Shown here in pieces: positions 1 through 57,685 of a DNA stretch of 64,000 nt (position 1 is its first letter; every line of letters begins with the position of its first letter). This DNA comes from Dioscorea cayenensis subsp. rotundata (taxonomy: Eukaryota > Streptophyta > Magnoliopsida > Dioscoreales > Dioscoreaceae). The translations under genes were made by a program, and so were the position numbers. Location of the stretch: assembly GCF_009730915.1 (NCBI RefSeq), contig NC_052479.1:868001-932000 (forward strand). Reading direction: 5' to 3'. The notes under the pieces are model-generated. The model was given only the letters and a program-made list of their open reading frames with translations. It ran no database searches and was not told the DNA's origin.

Positions 1-2775
1 ATATAATTTTTGTAGCTTAATTCTTAACGATAAATTTTCAATCACAAAAAATAGAGATTTTCCCTTGCTATATAGCCTATGAAAATTTTCCCAAATTTCA
101 ATGACAAAATTGAAGTTGATGTTTATACAAATTTAAAGTTTTGTTATATATTTTTCATGAATGAGATATTTTTGTAATATATAATTTTGTAGGTAAATTT
201 TAATGATAAATTTTCAATAACAAAAGTAAAAGATTTCCCCTTATTATAGCCTATCAAAATTTTGCCAAATTTCGATGACAAATTTTAAATTGAAAGGTAA
301 AAAAATTTAAAGTTTTGTTTTCTAGAAAAGACAAACAATTTGCAATTTCTAATTTTTTACGCGATCAAAAATTTTTATTTTTATTAAAAAATCTATTTTT
401 TTGTTACATGTTTTTTTCGGTGTGAGATTTTTGTAATGTATAATTTTTTTAGGTTAATTTTTATTGATAAATTTTCATTCGCAGAAGTTAGAGATTTTCC
501 ATTATTATAGCTCATGAATATTTTCCAAATTTCGATGGCAAAATTGAAGGTTACATTTATACAAATTTAAAGTTTTGTTATATATTTTTTCAAAATGAGA
601 GATTTTTTCAATATATAATTTTTGTTGATTAAATTTTAATAATAAATTTTCAATCACAAAAGTTAGCGATCTTCCCTTACTATAGCTTATAAAAATTTTC
701 CCAAATTTCGATCAAAAAATTGAAGTTGACATGTATAAAAATTTAAAGTTCTGTTTTCTCATTAATATAAACTATTTGCAATTTCAATTTTTTTAGTATA
801 TATTTATTGAGAATTTGTGATTTTTGTAATATGTAATTTTTGTAGATTAATTTTCAATGATAAATTTTCAATCACAAAAGTTAGAGATTTTCATTTACTA
901 TAGCCTATGAAAATTTGCCCAAATTTCAATGACAAAATTGAAGTTGATGTTTATGCAAATTTAAAGTTTAGTTATATACTTTTTAAGAATCAGAGATTTT
1001 TGTAATATATAATTTTTGGAGGTTAATTTCTAATCATAAATTTTTAATCACAAAAGTTAGATATTTTCTCTTACTATAACCAATGAAAATTTCCCTAAAT
1101 TTTGTTCAGAAGATTTAAGTTGACAGGAATAAAAATTTACAGTTTTTTCCTTAAAAAAATAACTATTTGCAATTTCTAAGTTTTTACGCAATCAAAATTT
1201 TTTATTTTTATTTAAAAATATATTTTTTTGTTATATGTTTTTTCGACTGTGAGATTTTTGTAATATATTATTTTCGTAGGTTAATTTTTATTGATAAATT
1301 TTCATTCACAAAACTTAGAGATTTTCATTTACTATAGCCTATGAAAACTTTCCCAAATTTCGATTACAAAACTGAATTTGACACGTATAAAAATTTAACG
1401 TTTTGTTTTCTCATTAATATAAACTATTTGCAATTTCTATTTTTACACGATAAAAAGTTAATATTTCCAATTAAAAATCTATTTTTTTAGTAAATTTTTT
1501 TTGAGAATGTGAGATTTTTGTAATATATAATTTTTGTAGTGTAATTCTTAACGATAAATTTTCAATCACAAAAGTTAGAGATTTTCCCTTGCTATATAGT
1601 CTATGAAAATTTTCCCAAATTTCATTGACGAAATTGAAGTTGATGTTTATACAAATTTAAAGTTTGGTTATATATTTTTCAAGAATGAGATATTTTTGTA
1701 ATTTATAATTTTAATAGGTTAATTTTAATGATAAATTTTCAATAACAAGAGTAAAAGATTTCCCCTTACTAGAACCTATGAAAATTTTGCAAAATTTCGA
1801 TGACAAAATTTAAGTTGAAAGGTATAAAAATTTAAAGTTTTGTTTTCTAAAAAGATAAACAATTTTCAATTTCTAATTTTTTACACGATCAAAATTTTTA
1901 TTTCTATTTAAAAATCTTTTTTTTTGTTATATGTTTTTTCGGATGTGAGATTTTTTTAGGTTAATTTTTATTTATAAATTTTTAATCACAAAAGTTAGAG
2001 ATTTTCCATTATTATAATCTATGAACATATGCCGAAATTTCGATGACAAAATTGAAGTTGATAGTTATACAAATTTAAGTTTTGTTATATATTTTTTTAG
2101 AATGAGAAAGTTTTTTCAATATATAATTTTTGTTGGTTAAATTTTAATAATAAATTTTCAATCACAAAAGTTAGAGATCTTCCCTTATTATAGCTTATAA
2201 AAACTTTCTCAAATTTCGATTACAAAATTGAAGTTGACATGTATAAAAATTTAAAGTTTTGTTTTCTCGTTAATATAAACTATTTGCAATTTTTATTTTT
2301 TTTACACAATAAAAAGTTAATATTTTCATTTAAAAATCTATTTTTTTAGTATATATTTATTGAGAATTTGAGATTTTTTAAATATATAATTTTTGTAGAT
2401 TGATTTTTAATGATAAATTTTCAATCACAAAAAGTTAGGTATTTTACCTTGCTATAGCCTATGAAATTTTTTTTTCAAATTTCAATAACAAAATTAAAGT
2501 TGATGTTTATACAAATTGAAAGTTTTGTTATATATTTTTCAAGAATGAGATATTTTTGTAATATATAATTTTTGTAGGTTAATTTTAATGATAAATTTTC
2601 AATAACAAAAGTAAAAAATTTCAACTTATTAGAATCTATCAAAATTTCGCTAAATTTCGATAACAAAATTTAAGTTTAAAGGTATAAAAATTTAAAGTTT
2701 TGTTTTCTAAAAAGATAAACAATTTGCAATTTCCAATTTTTTACACGATCAAAAATTTTTATTTTTATTTAAAAA
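1..2775 (+). repeat. AT-rich satellite array with dimeric and higher-order periodicity
   Basis: A shared core (GATAAATTTTCAATCACAAA, with variants) recurs near 29, 206, 466, 640, 859, 1034, 1290, 1550, 1730, 1970, 2150, 2410 and 2590. Spacings alternate between about 175-180 bp and about 220-260 bp, so the basic unit is a short/long dimer near 435 bp. The copies at 29-240 and 1550-1770 are more alike than neighbours are, which gives a higher-order period near 1.5 kb. There is no coding potential; ORFs here are low-complexity AT. The array enters from outside the window. It could be pericentromeric or subtelomeric satellite, or a local tandem array; the sequence does not decide. Confidence 0.9.
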
Positions 2776-2789
2776 ATCTGTAGTTTTGT

Positions 2790-4511
2790 TGTTGAAAATT
2801 TGTCATTAAAATTAACCTACAAAAGTGTTATATTACAAAAATAATTCTTGAAAAAGAGCTGTAACAAACTCCCGAGGCTAACAGGCATCGGCACCAGCCT
2901 GACCGTGGTGAGACTGGAGTGGCAGGCAAAAACTCTGGCTTTGTGGCTATCATTAAAAATCAATCTACAAAAAGAAACCCTATATTTAAAAAATCTCAAG
3001 TCTCAATAAATATAACAAAAAATGAATTTTAGTGAGCATTGATGTTAGTAAGGGTGCCAGATCAGTTGCTCGGTGACAGGAGACAGGCACAGGACACATG
3101 CAGTGTCAGCTTCAGTTTATGATCGAGGGGCGGTTTGTGAGCTATGACAGGGGAGGATCTGGCTTTGGGTTGATGATGGTGACCAGGCGCGCTCGTTGGG
3201 CTGGGCTTGAGCAGGCTTGGGGTTGCAGCGGCATCGACTCGATTTTGATGTCGAGGCCTAAACTCATCATGGATATGATGGAAGATCTGACTTTATTGAT
3301 TGGAACTATGGTAGGTGTTTCCGTCTCACGTCAGGCTGTTTCTTTTTAAATGAAATAAGGGCCTGATCAGATATGGAATGGAATTGATTATCTTTAGTGA
3401 ACAGGTTGTGCTGACAGACACGATCGTCGAGAACTGCTGGGTACCATGGGTTCTGGTGAGGGAATCTTTGCCCGGAGCCAGTGAGGGTATCGTTAAGGTG
3501 ACAGTGGGCCCATGATTACAAGGCATTGTGAAATGTGACAGGCTGGGGCTGGGCGCGGCTCGGCTCGAACTGGGTCAGTGAGGCAGGGAAAATTTTCGCC
3601 AGACAGCAAGGGAAAATCTCTGGCTTTGTGAAAAGAACCCCATCGTTAGGCTCACTACAAAAATGCTGTTACAAAAATCTCACGTTCTCAAAGAACCCCG
3701 CTAAAAAGCATAGTTTTTCGGTGGAGGAAATGTTTATCGTGTAAATAGAAATTACTGAAATAGTATCGAGGAAAACAAACGTTGGGGTATGCGTCAGGGT
3801 CGGTTTTGTCGGAGACTGGGAGGCTATGGTGCGTGAGGTCTGAGTTCAATGGTTGTCGGCCAAAGATTGAACCTGCAGCTGTTACAAAATCTCACGGTCA
3901 GGCTGCTGTTTTCAAGGCTCTTTGTTGCAAATAAAGAAATAAGGTGCAGGTTAACGCTGGGGAATGCAAATGGTCACAGGGAAAAGACTGTGAGTCCCAT
4001 TCATGACTCCGGCTGGGCTGAACAGAGGTGGGGAGGGCCTGGGTGGATGTGGAGGGAGAGGAAATGTCTGGCAGTGATTAAGAGACATGGGTCCAGCTTC
4101 CAAATATGCTCATTACAAAATCTCGATTCTTTAAAAATATAACTAAACTTTAAATTCATAACATCAACTCGACGTCGTTGATTCAGACGGGTGCGGGCTA
4201 TAGTGATCTGGCACGGCCAGTTGATTGTCGTTGAGGCGTAATCTGCAAGGCCATGTTACACAGGTCTGGAGTTCTCGATGAAATGCTAAGGGTGGTGCAG
4301 GCTCGGACCCAGCAGTGGGAGGCAGAACCATGCATCGGCCTCGGGCACGATCGAGGCGGGGCGCCAGGCAGGAGATCATGGCTGGTGTTGTGGGGCTGAT
4401 CGGCAAGGCCCGCGAAAAATCTCGTTTGAAATATGAAACTTGTATCGTGTAACCTTCGGACTGCCATCCGGGGGGCCCCGGAGAAAATATTCATGACTAT
4501 AACGCCTGTTG
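2790..4511 (-). repeat. Inverted, G/C-shifted copy of the satellite (fold-back arm)
   Basis: Read as reverse complement, this stretch follows the satellite at about 2607 back to about 505 in order. 2790-2806 pairs with 2591-2607. 3010-3050 pairs with the block just upstream of 2350. 4449-4494 pairs specifically with 514-555, the only monomer having both GAAGGTTAC and ATGGCAAAA. Between well-kept anchors the plus strand shows many A or T positions replaced by G or C, mostly A to G. The arm is about 380 bp shorter than its partner. The ORFs here are by-products of the G/C shift. It abuts the assembly gap, and an assembly or read artefact is the leading explanation. Confidence 0.85.
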
Positions 4512-5511
4512 NNNNNNNNNNNNNNNNNNNNNNNNNNNNNNNNNNNNNNNNNNNNNNNNNNNNNNNNNNNNNNNNNNNNNNNNNNNNNNNNNNNNNNNNN
4601 NNNNNNNNNNNNNNNNNNNNNNNNNNNNNNNNNNNNNNNNNNNNNNNNNNNNNNNNNNNNNNNNNNNNNNNNNNNNNNNNNNNNNNNNNNNNNNNNNNNN
4701 NNNNNNNNNNNNNNNNNNNNNNNNNNNNNNNNNNNNNNNNNNNNNNNNNNNNNNNNNNNNNNNNNNNNNNNNNNNNNNNNNNNNNNNNNNNNNNNNNNNN
4801 NNNNNNNNNNNNNNNNNNNNNNNNNNNNNNNNNNNNNNNNNNNNNNNNNNNNNNNNNNNNNNNNNNNNNNNNNNNNNNNNNNNNNNNNNNNNNNNNNNNN
4901 NNNNNNNNNNNNNNNNNNNNNNNNNNNNNNNNNNNNNNNNNNNNNNNNNNNNNNNNNNNNNNNNNNNNNNNNNNNNNNNNNNNNNNNNNNNNNNNNNNNN
5001 NNNNNNNNNNNNNNNNNNNNNNNNNNNNNNNNNNNNNNNNNNNNNNNNNNNNNNNNNNNNNNNNNNNNNNNNNNNNNNNNNNNNNNNNNNNNNNNNNNNN
5101 NNNNNNNNNNNNNNNNNNNNNNNNNNNNNNNNNNNNNNNNNNNNNNNNNNNNNNNNNNNNNNNNNNNNNNNNNNNNNNNNNNNNNNNNNNNNNNNNNNNN
5201 NNNNNNNNNNNNNNNNNNNNNNNNNNNNNNNNNNNNNNNNNNNNNNNNNNNNNNNNNNNNNNNNNNNNNNNNNNNNNNNNNNNNNNNNNNNNNNNNNNNN
5301 NNNNNNNNNNNNNNNNNNNNNNNNNNNNNNNNNNNNNNNNNNNNNNNNNNNNNNNNNNNNNNNNNNNNNNNNNNNNNNNNNNNNNNNNNNNNNNNNNNNN
5401 NNNNNNNNNNNNNNNNNNNNNNNNNNNNNNNNNNNNNNNNNNNNNNNNNNNNNNNNNNNNNNNNNNNNNNNNNNNNNNNNNNNNNNNNNNNNNNNNNNNN
5501 NNNNNNNNNNN
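4512..5511. other. Assembly gap, exactly 1000 N
   Basis: An unbroken run of 1000 N. A round length like this is a placeholder for a gap of unknown size, so distances across it mean nothing. Any long ORF spanning it is an artefact. Confidence 0.99.
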
Positions 5512-24194: not shown

Positions 24195-27100
24195 ACAATA
24201 AATATTTGTGCTTTAAATTTCACAAAACAATAAAGTAGTATAGTAAACTATATTGACAACAATATCACAAGAACATCATCAAATAATTTCCTCATATCAA
24301 TATTTATCTACTTAAAGAAAAGTGTAAAATATAATCAAGCTTGAAGAGTTTGATAAAGGATACATGTTCTCCTTCCAATAAAGGAAAAAAATCAAATTAA
24401 AATAATAGTTTATAAAGAAATAAAGTCTACTATATACATTTGATAGACAACTTTATGTTTTTTTTACATTTAAATAAGTCTAAAGCTACCAAGGATTAAC
24501 ATCTATGAATATTGGTCTTTTTATTTGGTGGTAAATGTTGTTTAGAGGTAATGATGTGATGCTTTTGTCCTTTATGTTGTAAGTGCCTGAATCACTATAT
24601 TTATACTTGTAGCTTGGATACATAAAGTCATCACTGAAATAAATAATATCATTTTTTGTCTTATCCATCATAGTTGTTGTAATTGACATCGCATGATTAG
24701 AACCCACATGATCATTTATAGCTTTTAACTCAATGAATTGATTTTTCTTGATCACGCTTAAATGCTTTGAAAGCGCTCTGCATACGAAAAGAATCCATCG
24801 AACCTTTGCTATTCGGGTCATTGCATGATCAACATCATCCCGTTTGCCTCAATGGGGTCAGTCCACCTATAAATAAATAATAGATCTCCCAAAAAATCTA
24901 CCATGTATCATTTCTTCTAAATAGCCATTATATGGAGTGACTTCTCTTAACATGTTATTCACCAAAATTCAACTAGACACACTTGATTATGTGCTCCAAT
25001 AACATAAAATGCTCCATTATACCATATGATGTCTTCAAGATAAAAATCGCTATCTATCCACGAGTCCATATTGAATCACACGGTCTCCAAAAATGCTAAT
25101 TTGAAGAATACCAGTAAATAGTAATCACAATATAGTCGAGTCTTCGAAGGATCATGGATACTTTTGCTTTATAAATAAGTTGATCACGTTTTTCTTCGGG
25201 CTTTTCATCATAAAGGTTTCATAATATTCTCGGGGCCCGATCATCGGAAGCATCAAAAAGCGATAAAGGTAACTTGACACGAGGCTTTAGAAAAGAGTTC
25301 AACAAATTTATATTGAGATCAGGTCTATTGTAATTAACCAACCATATGAAGAACCAGCACAATGTCTCATTGTAACTTTCGGGTGTTTCTATTTGATAAA
25401 TTTTGTCCTCTGATGGGTTGTAGAATCTTGGAGAATCAACGTCGAAAGAATAAGCAAACCAAGGAAACATTTGTTTTGAGGGGTAATATCTCTCATTTGC
25501 CACTTCAAACCAGATGTGAGACAGCGCAACTAAAGCGAGACATAATCGAAAATGAGAGAAAGCTTTGTTGTCTCTTGCAAAATGTCCTCGGAAGATTTCC
25601 ATAATCGGCCATAACTCCTGTGACTTATAGATAAATAAATAAATAAATAAAATAAAATAAAATAAAATTATGTGATGCTCCTCCCATGATTTCATAAAGA
25701 CATTGATTTTAATTTTGTTTATTGAATACTATTAGATCTAGGACATGGATACCTTATATCTGTTTAATACAACTGGTTTATTCGATTTAGATGTTGTTTT
25801 TTTACATTTAATTTGGATTTTCTTTTAACATTTGATATTTGTACTTCGTTTTATAATTTATACGGTTTACTTGTAAAGATAGAATAATTGCAATCAAACT
25901 GCCCTTTGTGTCCAACCCAACGGCCTGTGATAGCCCAAGACAAAATGGTCCCCGTCTTCAATTATAAAATCATATATATTGATATCTTTTGTAATGATGA
26001 AAAAATTTTAAAATAAAATAAAATAACATAAAGGCAAGTGTGCATTTAGAAAAACATATATAATCAATAGAACATATAACCATGAAAAAAAATAAAAATA
26101 ATCAAATCACCCAAAACCAGATAATTTCGTTCAAATTTTTTTAGCAAAAGAGAGATTGTAAGAGGGTAAAAATCTTGGGAGCTCACCGAACTATGGTTAT
26201 GATAACTAATTTGGTCATGTTAAAATTAAATTTTTGTTTATTTTAAATTTTAGTAATTGATCAAGTTTTTTTAGGTGTCGAGTGATATGGGTAACATGCC
26301 ATAGTGCCAATGCCCTAATCTCCAATAAAATAGAAATATTGGGATGAAAAAGATACAAATCTAAAAAATAAAAATTTCAAAATAAAAAAATTAGGGATTA
26401 AAAAATAATAGAGGGAAAAAAAGATTATGGCGTTACCACAAGAGAGAAACTCTTGCAATAAAAGTGAATGGGGACGAAGGTGTGGCAATAGAGCCTGAGT
26501 TTTGAAGAGAAGGTGGTTCTCGTCAGATTAAAACTTTATAAATAAGTTGAAATTTTAGTAGGAAATATGAATCATATGTTATATGGAGGAAATTAAATAT
26601 ATAAATAATAATGAGATGATTATACTGTGTATAGGTATTGATTTTAAAAAAGAAAAAGAAAAAGTGGTGTTGTGCATGGAAACCTCATACCAACAATTTA
26701 AATAAATAAATAAATATATAAAATAATGTTCTCCTCTTGAAAATGCATCACTGCTGGTGATGTCTTTTTTATTCGTTTAGATCAGAATTATCCCCTTGTT
26801 ATAAATAAATAAATAAATCCAACGCCTGGTGAGACTTTAGGGCGAGAGAAATTTTTTAATACTATTACAGTATCAAGATACCATGAATTATGTGTTAGCA
26901 GTAAAAAAAAATAATATAATAATATAGTAATAAAAAAAATAAATAGAGAAACATACCTTTACTCGATGGAACAAAAAGTGATTTAGTCAAGTGAGTTGAG
27001 ACAGGAGACGCAGGTGTGCTTTTATTATATTTTTATTATTTAATCCTAATCAAACTCTAATTATAATCAAATTAAAATTAAATTTTTAATAAATATGTTC

Positions 27101-34257: not shown

Positions 34258-35397
34258 CTACCAAGGATTAATATCTATGAATATTGGTCTTTTTATTTGG
34301 TGGTAAATGTTGTTTAGAGGTAATGATGTGATGCTTTTGTCCTTTATGTTGTAAGTGCCTGAATCACTATATTTATACTTGTAGCTCGGATCCATAAAGT
34401 CATCACTGAAATAAATAATATCATTTTTTGTCTTATCCATCATAGTTGTTGTTGTAATTGACATCGCATGATTAGAACCCAAAAAAAAAACATGATCATT
34501 TATGCTTTTTAACTCAATGAATTGATTTTTTTCTTGATCACGCTTAAATACTTTGAAACGCTCTGTACGAAAAGAATCCATCGAACCTTTGCTATTCGGG
34601 TCATTGCCTTGATCAACATCATCCTTTGCCTCAATGGAGTCAGTCCACCTATAAATAAATAATAGATCTCCCAAAAAATCTACCATGTATTTTTTCATTT
34701 CTTCTAAATAGCCATTATATGGAGTGACTTCTCTTAACATGTTATTCACACCAAATTCAACTAGACACACTTGATTATGTGCTCCAATAACATAAAATGC
34801 TCCATTATACCATATGATGTCTTCAAGATAAAAATCGCTATCTATCACAGTCCATATTGAATCACCTGGTCTCCAAAATGCTAATTTGAAGAATGCAAAG
34901 TAAATGGCAATCACAATATAGTCAGAAGTCTTCGAAGGATCCGCGGATAACACTGCTTTATAAATAAGTTCATCACGTTTTTCTTCGGGCTTTTTCATCA
35001 TAAAGGTTTCATAATATTCTCCAGGCCAATCATCAGAAGCATCAAAAGGCAGTAAAGGTAACTTGACCTGAGCTTTAGAAAAAGGATTCAACAAATTTAT
35101 ATTGAGATCCAGGTCTATTGTAATTAACCAACCATGTGAAGAACCAGCACAATGTCTCATGTGTAACTCAGGTGTTTCTATTTGATAAATTTTATCCTCT
35201 GACGGGTTGTAGAATCTTGGAGAATCAACATCAAAGAATAGCAACCAAGGAAGCTGTTTTTGAGGAGGGTAATATCTCTCATTTGCCACTTCAAACCAAT
35301 GTGAACAAACAACGCTAAACCGAACATAATCCGAAAATGAGAGAAACTTTGTTATCTCTTGCAAAATGTCCCTCGGAAGATTTCCATAATCTGCCAT
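34258..35397 (-). CDS. F-box protein with C-terminal DUF295 region
   Basis: A single-exon ORF of 379 residues. The F-box is at about residues 5-45 (LPRDILQEITKFLSFSDYVR...VCSHWFEVANE). The rest fits the F-box/DUF295 family of plants, including NPSEDKIYQIETPE near residue 65 and the C-terminal NDIIYFSDDF signature near residue 335. F-box proteins act as substrate adaptors of SCF ubiquitin ligases by binding SKP1; the DUF295 part would recognise the substrate, which is unknown. The start MADYGNLP is at the usual distance from the F-box. A hAT element begins 104 bp upstream of the ATG in this copy only, so expression may differ from the ancestral state. The paralogue at 24486-25614 is broken. 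Confidence 0.85.
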   Translation of the reverse strand: MADYGNLPRDILQEITKFLSFSDYVRFSVVCSHWFEVANERYYPPQKQLPWLLFFDVDSPRFYNPSEDKIYQIETPELHMRHCAGSSHGWLITIDLDLNINLLNPFSKAQVKLPLLPFDASDDWPGEYYETFMMKKPEEKRDELIYKAVLSADPSKTSDYIVIAIYFAFFKLAFWRPGDSIWTVIDSDFYLEDIIWYNGAFYVIGAHNQVCLVEFGVNNMLREVTPYNGYLEEMKKYMVDFLGDLLFIYRWTDSIEAKDDVDQGNDPNSKGSMDSFRTERFKVFKRDQEKNQFIELKSINDHVFFLGSNHAMSITTTTMMDKTKNDIIYFSDDFMDPSYKYKYSDSGTYNIKDKSITSLPLNNIYHQIKRPIFIDINPW

Positions 35398-46020: not shown

Positions 46021-46803
46021 ATGTCAAACCCTAACACTAACCCTAACCCTAATTCCCATCCATGCATCTATATATCCCCACCAACCATGCACTTCTTCCT
46101 CTCCAACCACCTCTGCCACGTCCCAATGGAAGTAGAAGATCAAGAACCTGATCACAAGGTCATCACTAGTAGTCCTCCCTCTTCATCTCCATCTCCATCT
46201 CCATCTTCATCTTCATCAAGATGGAACCCTACAAAGGAACAAATAACCATTCTTGAAGGCCTATACAAGCAAGGCATTAGAACACCAACTGCAGAACAAA
46301 TACAACAAATCACATCAAGGTTGAAGCAATATGGCTGCATTGAGGGCAAGAATGTCTTTTACTGGTTCCAAAACCACAAAGCCAGACAAAGACAAAAGCA
46401 AAGACAAGAAACCTTTGCTTACTTCACCACCCTCCTTCATCCTCCTCCTCCTCCTCCTCCATACAACACTGGTATACTATTTTCTCAATCCATCTTAATT
46501 ATATATATATCTTATATATATATATGCACTTATAATTATTTTTCAGCTTATTTACAAGGTCATCATCATCATCATCATCATCATCAAGTTGGTAGTATTG
46601 GTTTCTATGAACAACCATTGCATCAGTGCCAAAACTCAATGTGTTCAAGTGGAAATGTGAGGATGGAGATGAAGAAAGCAGCTGCCATTAATGGATTCAG
46701 TGCTGCTTCTGATCATTACCAAACTCTTGAGTTGTTTCCATTGCATCCAACTGGAATTCTTGAAGACAAATGTGCAAGTTCTAATGAGAGTTTGGGTGAT
46801 TGA
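46021..46803 (+). CDS. WUSCHEL-related homeobox protein, WOX2-like
   Basis: Exons 46021-46471 and 46547-46803 join ACT G|CT to give 235 residues. The homeodomain (about residues 66-130 from this start) has [20 protein letters not shown] and [27 protein letters not shown] and the RQRQKQ end are most like WOX2. The C-terminus carries the WUS-box-like [14 protein letters not shown]2 directs apical cell fate in the early embryo as a nuclear transcription factor. There are Ser/Pro, Pro (7) and His (8) runs. The start is uncertain: in-frame ATGs occur at 46021, 46087 and 46126, and the first overlaps a telo-box-like AAACCCTAA (46026-46034), so the third (MEVEDQEP) may be the real one. The 75-bp intron is in frame and stop-free. 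Confidence 0.85.
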
Positions 46804-50479: not shown

Positions 50480-51200
50480 GCCAATCTTTCCTTCATGAAC
50501 TCATGAATCAAGAACAGGATCTTCATTCTCAACACAAACTTTAAGCATCTGAAACATAGAAAAAAGGTCCATGAACTCATAAACAAAGAACAAGGTCACA
50601 ACGCTCGAACATTAAATGCAAAAATAAAAATCAAATCTTTCTATTCCATCAAGAACTCATAAACAAAGAAAAAAAAATCATGAGTTTCAACAGAGAAAAC
50701 ATTAAAGAAGAGAAACAGAAAATTATATCAACAATTTGAAAAATAAAAATCAAATCTTTCTTCCCTCCATGAACTCTGGAGCATCATCATCATCATCATC
50801 AACATAAGAAGAAAAAAAAAATGATATCAACAATTGAAAAATAAAAATCAAATCTTTCTTTCCTTCATGAACTCATAAACAGAGAAAAAGATCATAAGTT
50901 TCAAAAGATCAAACATCAAAGTAGAGAAACAGAAAAATTATATCAACAACTTAAAAAATAAAAATCAAATCTTTCTCCCCTCCATAAACTCATGAATCAT
51001 CATCAACAACAACAACATAAGAAAAAAACATAAAATGATATCATCAATCCAAAAACAAAAATCAAATCTTTCTTGCCTCCATAAACTCATATATCATCAT
51101 CATCAACAACAACAACATAAGAAGAAAAAAATAAAAATGATATCCACAATTGAAAACCAAAAATCAAATCTTTCCTTCCTCCATAAACTCAAGAATCATC
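50480..51200. repeat. Degenerate ~100-bp tandem repeats between VPS2 and the RING gene
   Basis: The phrase AAATCAAATCTTTCT recurs about every 94-119 bp (near 50629, 50746, 50846, 50965, 51059 and 51163), each time followed by CTCCATGAACTCATAAAC-like sequence and ATCATCATC or CAACAACAA runs. It lies in the shared 3' flanks of two convergent genes. No ORF. Confidence 0.8.
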
Positions 51201-51253
51201 ATCCTCATCAATAACAACAAGAACATAACAAAAAACAACAATTAATCTTATCC

Positions 51254-56025: not shown

Positions 56026-57357
56026 GAATGGGCGAATGTGGACCGTTGGATTGATTTGATCGGACGGTGATGTGTGACTTCGTTTCCCTCCAGAGGGTTC
56101 CTGCTCTCTCTGGTGCTTTCTAGAATGCACTAGCTAAGCGGTTGCTTTGCTTGCGGTTTCCACGTGGCATCGTCTCATTGGCTGCCCTCTTGGGTTAATA
56201 TAGTTTTGGGCTGGGCCTTTGTGGGCCGGCTTGGGCTTACCTTTTTTTAAACTATATTATTTTTTTAAATATTTTTTTATTTGTCAGAAACTCAATTTCT
56301 CGATCTTTTATGTGAGGATGATAAAAAAATTAAAATTATGATATTACCATTTTTTTTAAAGAAGAATATTATTTTTAATATCAATGTATGTGCGAAAGCT
56401 TTTAATTATAATTAGTGATAATAAAAAAAAATAATCATTTAACTTTAAAATTAAAATTTTAATGGCAGGTTATTATCTATGATAATATTTTTTTCCAAAG
56501 ATAATTTATTAAATATATTTAATTAAGTATTATAATTTAGAGAAAAATATCTGATGGTAGAGCCCTAGCAAGCCCAGGATTTTCAAGCCTAGCCCAACTG
56601 GCCCAAAGCCCGAAACAAGTAACTATAAGCCCATTACAGAAGGTCAGTTGGGTAGGTAGCCAAAATACGCACGTGCGCAGCCCGGGTTTGGACACGTGCG
56701 AATACTACGATTCAATCCTTTTCCTTTGAAAGCGCGGACCTTTCTCGTTCGCACGCGAAATCTTCGAAGCTCTGCTGAGATTCTTCGTACCCTGATTCAT
56801 TTTTTTTCCCGATTCCGTGTTTTTCTCTTGATCCGTGGTCAGTGGACGATGTCGGTATTGTGATCCATCGTCTTTGATAAGGTATTCCGTCGAAACCCTA
56901 GTTCGGGAACCGCTGGATCTTGAATTCTTTGAATTATGGGTTTTTTTTTATTATTTATTGATTTTGGTTAAGAATATTTATATTTTTGTGTGATTTTTAC
57001 GCTTTTTCGTTTTTTTGTTTTTGAGTTCTTGTGGATTTTGAAATGTTCTTGTTGAATTGAATGAAAAATGGAAATGGACGATGTGAATGGGAAACTGGAA
57101 ACAATATCGAAATTTTCTCTCATGCTCGCTAGCGTGGGTGTGATCTTTGAATCAGAATAAAGATGATACCTTTTGATGGATATTTGTAGTTTTAGTAGTA
57201 ATTGGTGAAAATTGATGTTGTGCGAGATAGGTGATGCTGTATTCAAACATGTATGGGAGTTGTGAAAATAGAAGCAATACAAAGATATTCTCCAAGCATA
57301 TGGCTTCTTGAATTTTGTTTTTTGTACAAAGTTTATGATCTATTTAAAATATTAATG

Positions 57358-57685
57358 AATTGCCTCTTGTATTGCTTAAAGAAATACAGAGATCTCTTGA
57401 TCTACAATTATTGATAAGTTCTTTGTTTATATTAATTTGAATTGGCCCTTGTATTGCTTAAAGAAATACAGAGATATCTTGATCTGAAATTACTGATAAA
57501 TTCTTTGTTTATATTAATTTGAATTGCCCCTTATATTGCTTAAAGAAATACAAAAATATCTTGATCTACAATTGCTGATAAATTCTTTTTTTATATTAAT
57601 TTGAATCATCCCTTGTACTGCTTAAAGAAATACAGAGATATCTTGATCTGCAATTGCTGATAAATTCTTTGTTTATGTTTATTTC
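57358..57685. repeat. 82-bp minisatellite, four copies
   Basis: Units start at 57358, 57440, 57522 and 57604, exactly 82 bp apart. Each contains GCTTAAAGAAATAC, ATCTTGATCT and GATAAATTCTTT with few differences. The array fills the 3' end of the 5' UTR intron of the SEC14-like gene, up to its acceptor near 57687. Confidence 0.95.

Follow-up and report, generated by a model that had tools for sequence, protein, structure and literature searches.

The DNA analysed here (the window) comprises 64,000 nucleotides of Dioscorea cayenensis subsp. rotundata (NC_052479.1, positions 868,001 to 932,000) and opens with an AT-rich satellite array on the plus strand at 1–2776, which Tandem Repeats Finder resolves into units of about 175 bp and of 394–441 bp, with a GC content of about 20%. 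Within this array local alignment delimits a well-read plus-strand segment at 505–2617 (arm 1), followed by an unpaired spacer, the turn, of about 150–160 bases (2618–2776, as bounded by the ends of the local alignment), and then by a sequence in minus-strand orientation (arm 2) that runs back along the array. The reverse complement of 2777–4502 pairs with 505–2617 in the local alignment. The start of arm 2 (2777–2843) is almost clean, as judged from an ungapped inverted repeat (2551–2621 with 2773–2843, 87% complementary, 151 bases in between) and from the error in blocks, and its remainder (2844–4502, minus strand) retraces about 2550 to 505 as reverse complement, with patchy miscalls and many deletions. 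Arm 2 stops nine bases before a placeholder gap: the final nine contig bases (4503–4511) lie outside the local alignment and are succeeded by a run of 1000 N at 4512–5511. A preliminary description had correctly placed the end of the stretch at this placeholder gap and had paired the piece just before it with a far monomer, whose position the local alignment gives as about 505–556. It had also put the net loss of arm 2 at about 380 bp, in agreement with the 18% now obtained (377 bases from arm lengths of 2113 and 1736, or 387 when the limits of the local alignment are used); the loop it reported is likewise present, but is smaller than the 180 bp or so that it had suggested.

Beyond the gap the window holds an F-box/KIB1-4 beta-propeller gene at 34258–35397 and, at a distance of about 10 kb and in the same orientation, two open frames (24486–24821 and 25219–25695) that by eye appear to be pieces of a close, broken copy. 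An open frame with a homeodomain resembling the plant WOX type lies at 46021–46803. Small tandem arrays are seen at 50615–51203 and 57349–57684, with units of 214 bp (2.2 copies), 102 bp (2.9 copies) and 82 bp (4.1 copies).

The retracing of arm 1 by arm 2 is colinear, i.e., it respects the individual monomers rather than merely the satellite family. When 200-bp segments of arm 2 were given free choice of position within 1–2776, the colinear place was taken by 16/16, and by 14/16 when only purine/pyrimidine letters were used; with 120-bp segments the corresponding figures were 20/27 and 18/27. All 45 of the 14-mers common to both arms are represented at the colinear place, as are 32/32 of those unique in the array, with same-strand and reversed controls giving 0; the same test with 10-mers places 43/55 colinearly. 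With a pair-HMM fitted to it, the colinear pairing attains a log-odds of 399.5 nats over a composition null; refits to five rotated registers attain 23.7–128.8 nats, and three strand decoys and four shuffles lie at −7.0 to +1.7 nats. Thus, another register of the array for arm 2 (24–129 versus 399.5 nats) is ruled out. Furthermore, for each of the four arm-2 blocks that have matches in the genome, the best non-self match among those listed is the colinear place on the same contig. The colinear fold-back proposed at the outset is borne out by the segments, the unique 14-mers and the log-odds alike; it had been made to depend on whether an alignment prefers the colinear pairing, and this pairing is preferred over all the rotated registers.

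The differences between the arms run largely in one direction. In plus-strand orientation, read from arm 1 to arm 2, changes from A/T to G/C (W>S) are found at 407/1309 aligned positions and the reverse (S>W) at 9/370. Changes were counted under three treatments, namely, a neutral alignment, a fitted alignment and a soft HMM. The neutral alignment gives 466 mismatches in 1679 aligned positions, with A>G at 194, A>C at 44 and A>T at 19, followed by T>G at 99, T>C at 70 and T>A at 17, while C is kept at 184/199 and G at 161/171 positions; deletions amount to 434 bases and insertions to 57. The fitted alignment raises A>G to 292, with 46% of A kept, 31% converted to G and 22% deleted. The soft HMM yields 223 A>G, 40 T>C, 25 T>G and 23 T>A, together with 694 deletions against 317 insertions. 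The dominance of A>G, the mostly intact C and G and the excess of deletions hold in both the neutral alignment and the soft HMM; the preference of T for C or for G varies with the alignment. An iterated best-path re-estimation turned nearly all changes into transitions and was judged partly self-reinforcing, and for this reason the neutral table and the soft HMM were relied upon. The tabulation of substitution types between the arms, which had been suggested as a check, thus returns A>G as the most frequent change with C and G mostly kept. The direction claimed earlier, from A/T to G/C and mainly A to G, stands with 194–292 such changes; its extent had been overstated, in that 46% of A is retained in the fitted alignment.

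These changes are also unevenly spread along the arm. The variance of error among 60-base blocks is 0.0174, as compared to a maximum of 0.0098 in 2000 shuffles, and the A>G state remains correlated up to a distance of about 40 bases. The loss of quality starts close to the junction: the error in the first three 60-base blocks past the turn is 0.12, 0.32 and 0.60, and in the later blocks it ranges over 0.15–0.67.

Other copies of the satellite in the same genome furnish a measure of what natural divergence in this family looks like. Six of them (L002, L003 and L005–L008) were put through the same procedure as arm 2, leaving out L001, which is the window's own copy, and L004, which overlaps L003. 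They show per-base W>S rates of 0.046–0.066 and S>W rates of 0.133–0.216, a bias opposite to that of arm 2, for which the respective values are 0.311 and 0.024. Arm 1 resembles other copies of the family at 87–91%, copies of the family differing by 9–13%, and the longer matches elsewhere in the genome stand at 78–89%. The differences between the arms are therefore unlike the divergence between family copies, which argues against a natural inverted array. The longer copies are situated towards the ends of the two sequences on which they occur (C9, at 0.02 and 0.87 of 31.1 Mb; C18, at 0.07–0.39 and 23.55 of 24.3 Mb), which fits a subterminal satellite.

A search of the 584-Mb assembly with arm 2, in which the best candidates only were scored, listed 79 matches. 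Self excepted, all of these fall in arm positions 1–95, 173–255, 811–991 and 1337–1394, blocks that are mostly clean; among the matches listed, the G/C-rich parts of the arm have no relative elsewhere in the assembly, and no second reading of the junction appears. Foreign or coding DNA as the source of the G/C-rich part was also considered and is rejected in view of the colinear alignment of this stretch with the satellite; in keeping with this, the plasmid collection holds no match to arm 2, no Rfam family reaches its gathering score within the window, and the 97-codon open frame contained in arm 2 (3849–4142) has no match in Pfam.

These patterns point to an assembly artefact, with a probability of about 0.85: a fold-back read from a nanopore, of which the returning half was wrongly called and then escaped polishing at the contig end. 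As biology, arm 2 is most likely not a real feature. The earlier suggestion, that a chimeric long read folded back and that its poorly called arm came to lie at the contig end, accordingly gains support from the colinearity, the one-way change, the deletion excess, the lack of a genome match among those listed and the position beside the gap. A nanopore platform, the physics at the pore and support by a single read are what we infer from them. A single read would have proceeded through the satellite in plus-strand direction up to about 2776 and then doubled back along the complementary strand. Its return would reflect either the passage of the molecule's opposite strand through the pore directly after the first or a snapping back of the molecule on itself. 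The part already past the pore would then pair with arm 2 during its reading and pull it, such that the strand moves too fast and the current is offset, with bases being skipped by the basecaller and many A, together with some T, being called as G or C; the current offset may thus be the cause of the A>G shift. The assembler would have kept this read as the tail of the contig, where the tail, not being overlain by other reads, was never corrected, and the 1000-N gap would have been placed after it. The almost clean first 60 bases would be as expected if pulling sets in only after the junction has cleared the pore. The turn of about 155 unpaired bases fits the artefact without being accounted for in detail, and this counts against it, as does the failure of an adapter search to find one at the turn.

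Several elements of this scenario have been described for nanopore reads. At inverted duplicates, PMC7229812 reports a normal first arm and, from near the junction, a rise in current and a speeding up of the strand, with a second arm in which calls are missing or wrong and whose length consistently falls short of that of the first; its authors propose that pairing beyond the pore pulls the strand after the junction has passed. The present case is alike in its normal arm 1, in failing from near the junction, in its missed and wrong calls and in its shorter arm 2. In a plant, inverted T-DNA arrays likewise showed low quality in their second part, with misassembled contigs (PMC8348815). The present case is unlike both in resting on the assembled sequence alone, whereas the former drew on raw current and reads from inverted duplications already known, as against a satellite without a known inversion here, and reads in the opposite direction resolved the arrays in the latter. 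The examples of second-arm failure given in PMC7229812 and PMC8348815 are, moreover, largely real inversions, which counts against the artefact. Fold-back artefact reads have been defined with a 200-bp limit at the turn (PMC12870357), and the return on the opposite strand after about 150–160 bp falls within it; the two example reads shown there are described as nearly perfectly palindromic, unlike arm 2, which is strongly miscalled and lies inside an assembly. On the whole, the nanopore reports would predict the features seen here, namely, a clean first arm, a short lag, one-way changes in patches and a net loss of 18%.

The A>G direction of miscalls in such arms was not found in the literature searched, including the available portion of PMC7229812. 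A parallel might be struck with telomeric repeats, where nanopore sequencing miscalls CCCTAA as CCCTGG, the current profiles of the two being similar (PMC9414165). Both cases share the CTAA to CTGG change and a strand-specific A>G, unlike in that the telomeric miscalls concern simple repeats in normal reads, as against a single fold-back arm with large deletions. In arm 2, CTAAC becomes CTGGC in 5/7 copies, whereas AA becomes GG in 73–78/514, which fits the artefact; of the remaining CTAA sites only 1/7 reads CTGG, which counts against it.

The alternative that survives best, itself unlikely, is that the inversion is real and only its letters are wrong, i.e., that the satellite underwent a very young inverted duplication, with arms of 2.1 kb and a spacer of about 155 bp, whose second arm was misread by nanopore and at which the contig broke. 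It draws on the same reports, in that the published second-arm failure is described at real inverted duplications (PMC7229812) and has given rise to misassemblies in a plant (PMC8348815), and also on the contig ending exactly at arm 2 and on an inverted satellite adjoining a gap on C18. Such a palindrome would have to possess almost identical arms, since even the miscalled arm retains 92–94% of the aligned C and G under the neutral alignment, though copies of the family differ by 9–13%; further, its junction lacks a second reading in the assembly and, among the matches listed, the arm occurs nowhere but beside this gap. The fold-back read and the misread young palindrome are not fully separable from the sequence by itself.

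A technical chimera of another kind, whether a PacBio read in which an adapter escaped recognition or a product of whole-genome amplification, is very improbable. Such palindromes have reportedly been observed, and the PacBio adapter does score weakly at the turn, a score equalled by 13/200 shuffles; a chimera alone, however, would give neither the one-way A>G shift nor a deletion excess confined to one arm, and raw PacBio errors are rich in insertions. The adapter search spanned 12 comparisons: no ONT adapters were found at the turn, an approximate rapid-kit-like sequence scored weakly at the contig end (equalled by 8/200 shuffles), and the other scores were no better than most shuffles. Finally, a real, freshly formed palindrome with one arm altered processively and with strand bias, by A>G (and T>C) conversion accompanied by deletions, is scarcely credible: the one-way, clustered change, mainly A>G on one strand, is what a processive enzyme might leave, but an 18% net loss of bases would have to occur simultaneously, clean patches adjoin wrecked ones, the changed arm is without a relative among the genome matches listed, natural copies are biased oppositely per base and the arm stops at the contig end.

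The preferred reading, a fold-back read with a miscalled return arm, bears on the use of such assemblies, as arm 2 could pass for ordinary G/C-richer plant DNA and enter surveys of genes, repeats and inversions. By the same token, a one-way, A>G-rich, C/G-sparing and deletion-rich retrace provides a fingerprint in the sequence that can be sought at contig ends without recourse to reads. A scan of this type, with a fold-back aligner tolerant of W>S changes (463 for the window as control versus 43 for a decoy), was applied to the starts of 30 other contigs and to 8 contig ends, and the edges of N gaps were examined in the window and on C18. No other G/C-shifted terminal tail was detected at these 30 starts and 8 ends, which counts against the artefact.

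Two further loci are suggestive, but neither held up as a clean second instance. The unplaced contig C46 (L037, 2614 bp) contains a fold-back of a dispersed repeat, 73–756 with 783–1421 and 26 bases between the arms, which shows 21 A>G, 9 G>A, 4 T>C and 3 C>T changes with 60 deletions and 15 insertions, deletions and A>G being the more numerous in the right arm. It is internal to the contig rather than terminal, and it may be a natural inverted pair, because, at the sites where the arms differ, a comparison with five other copies of the repeat favours the left arm 73 times and the right one 49 times. On C18, the region 231000–238500 (L047, 1203–6859) presents a 1000-N gap, followed by a satellite arm that is inverted, noisy and rich in deletions and, further on, by a normal array. 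The outer six 250-base blocks of this arm have 321 deletions as against 62 insertions, and its colinear log-odds is 258 versus at most 132.5 for rotated registers; 20/21 unique 16-mers, but only 21/33 unique 14-mers and 6/21 200-bp segments, are colinear, and its spectrum of changes is mixed. It is suggestive only of the same type of artefact at another gap edge, and is not counted as a second case. Short palindromes were also observed at the starts of L021 and L025 in the scan of contig starts.
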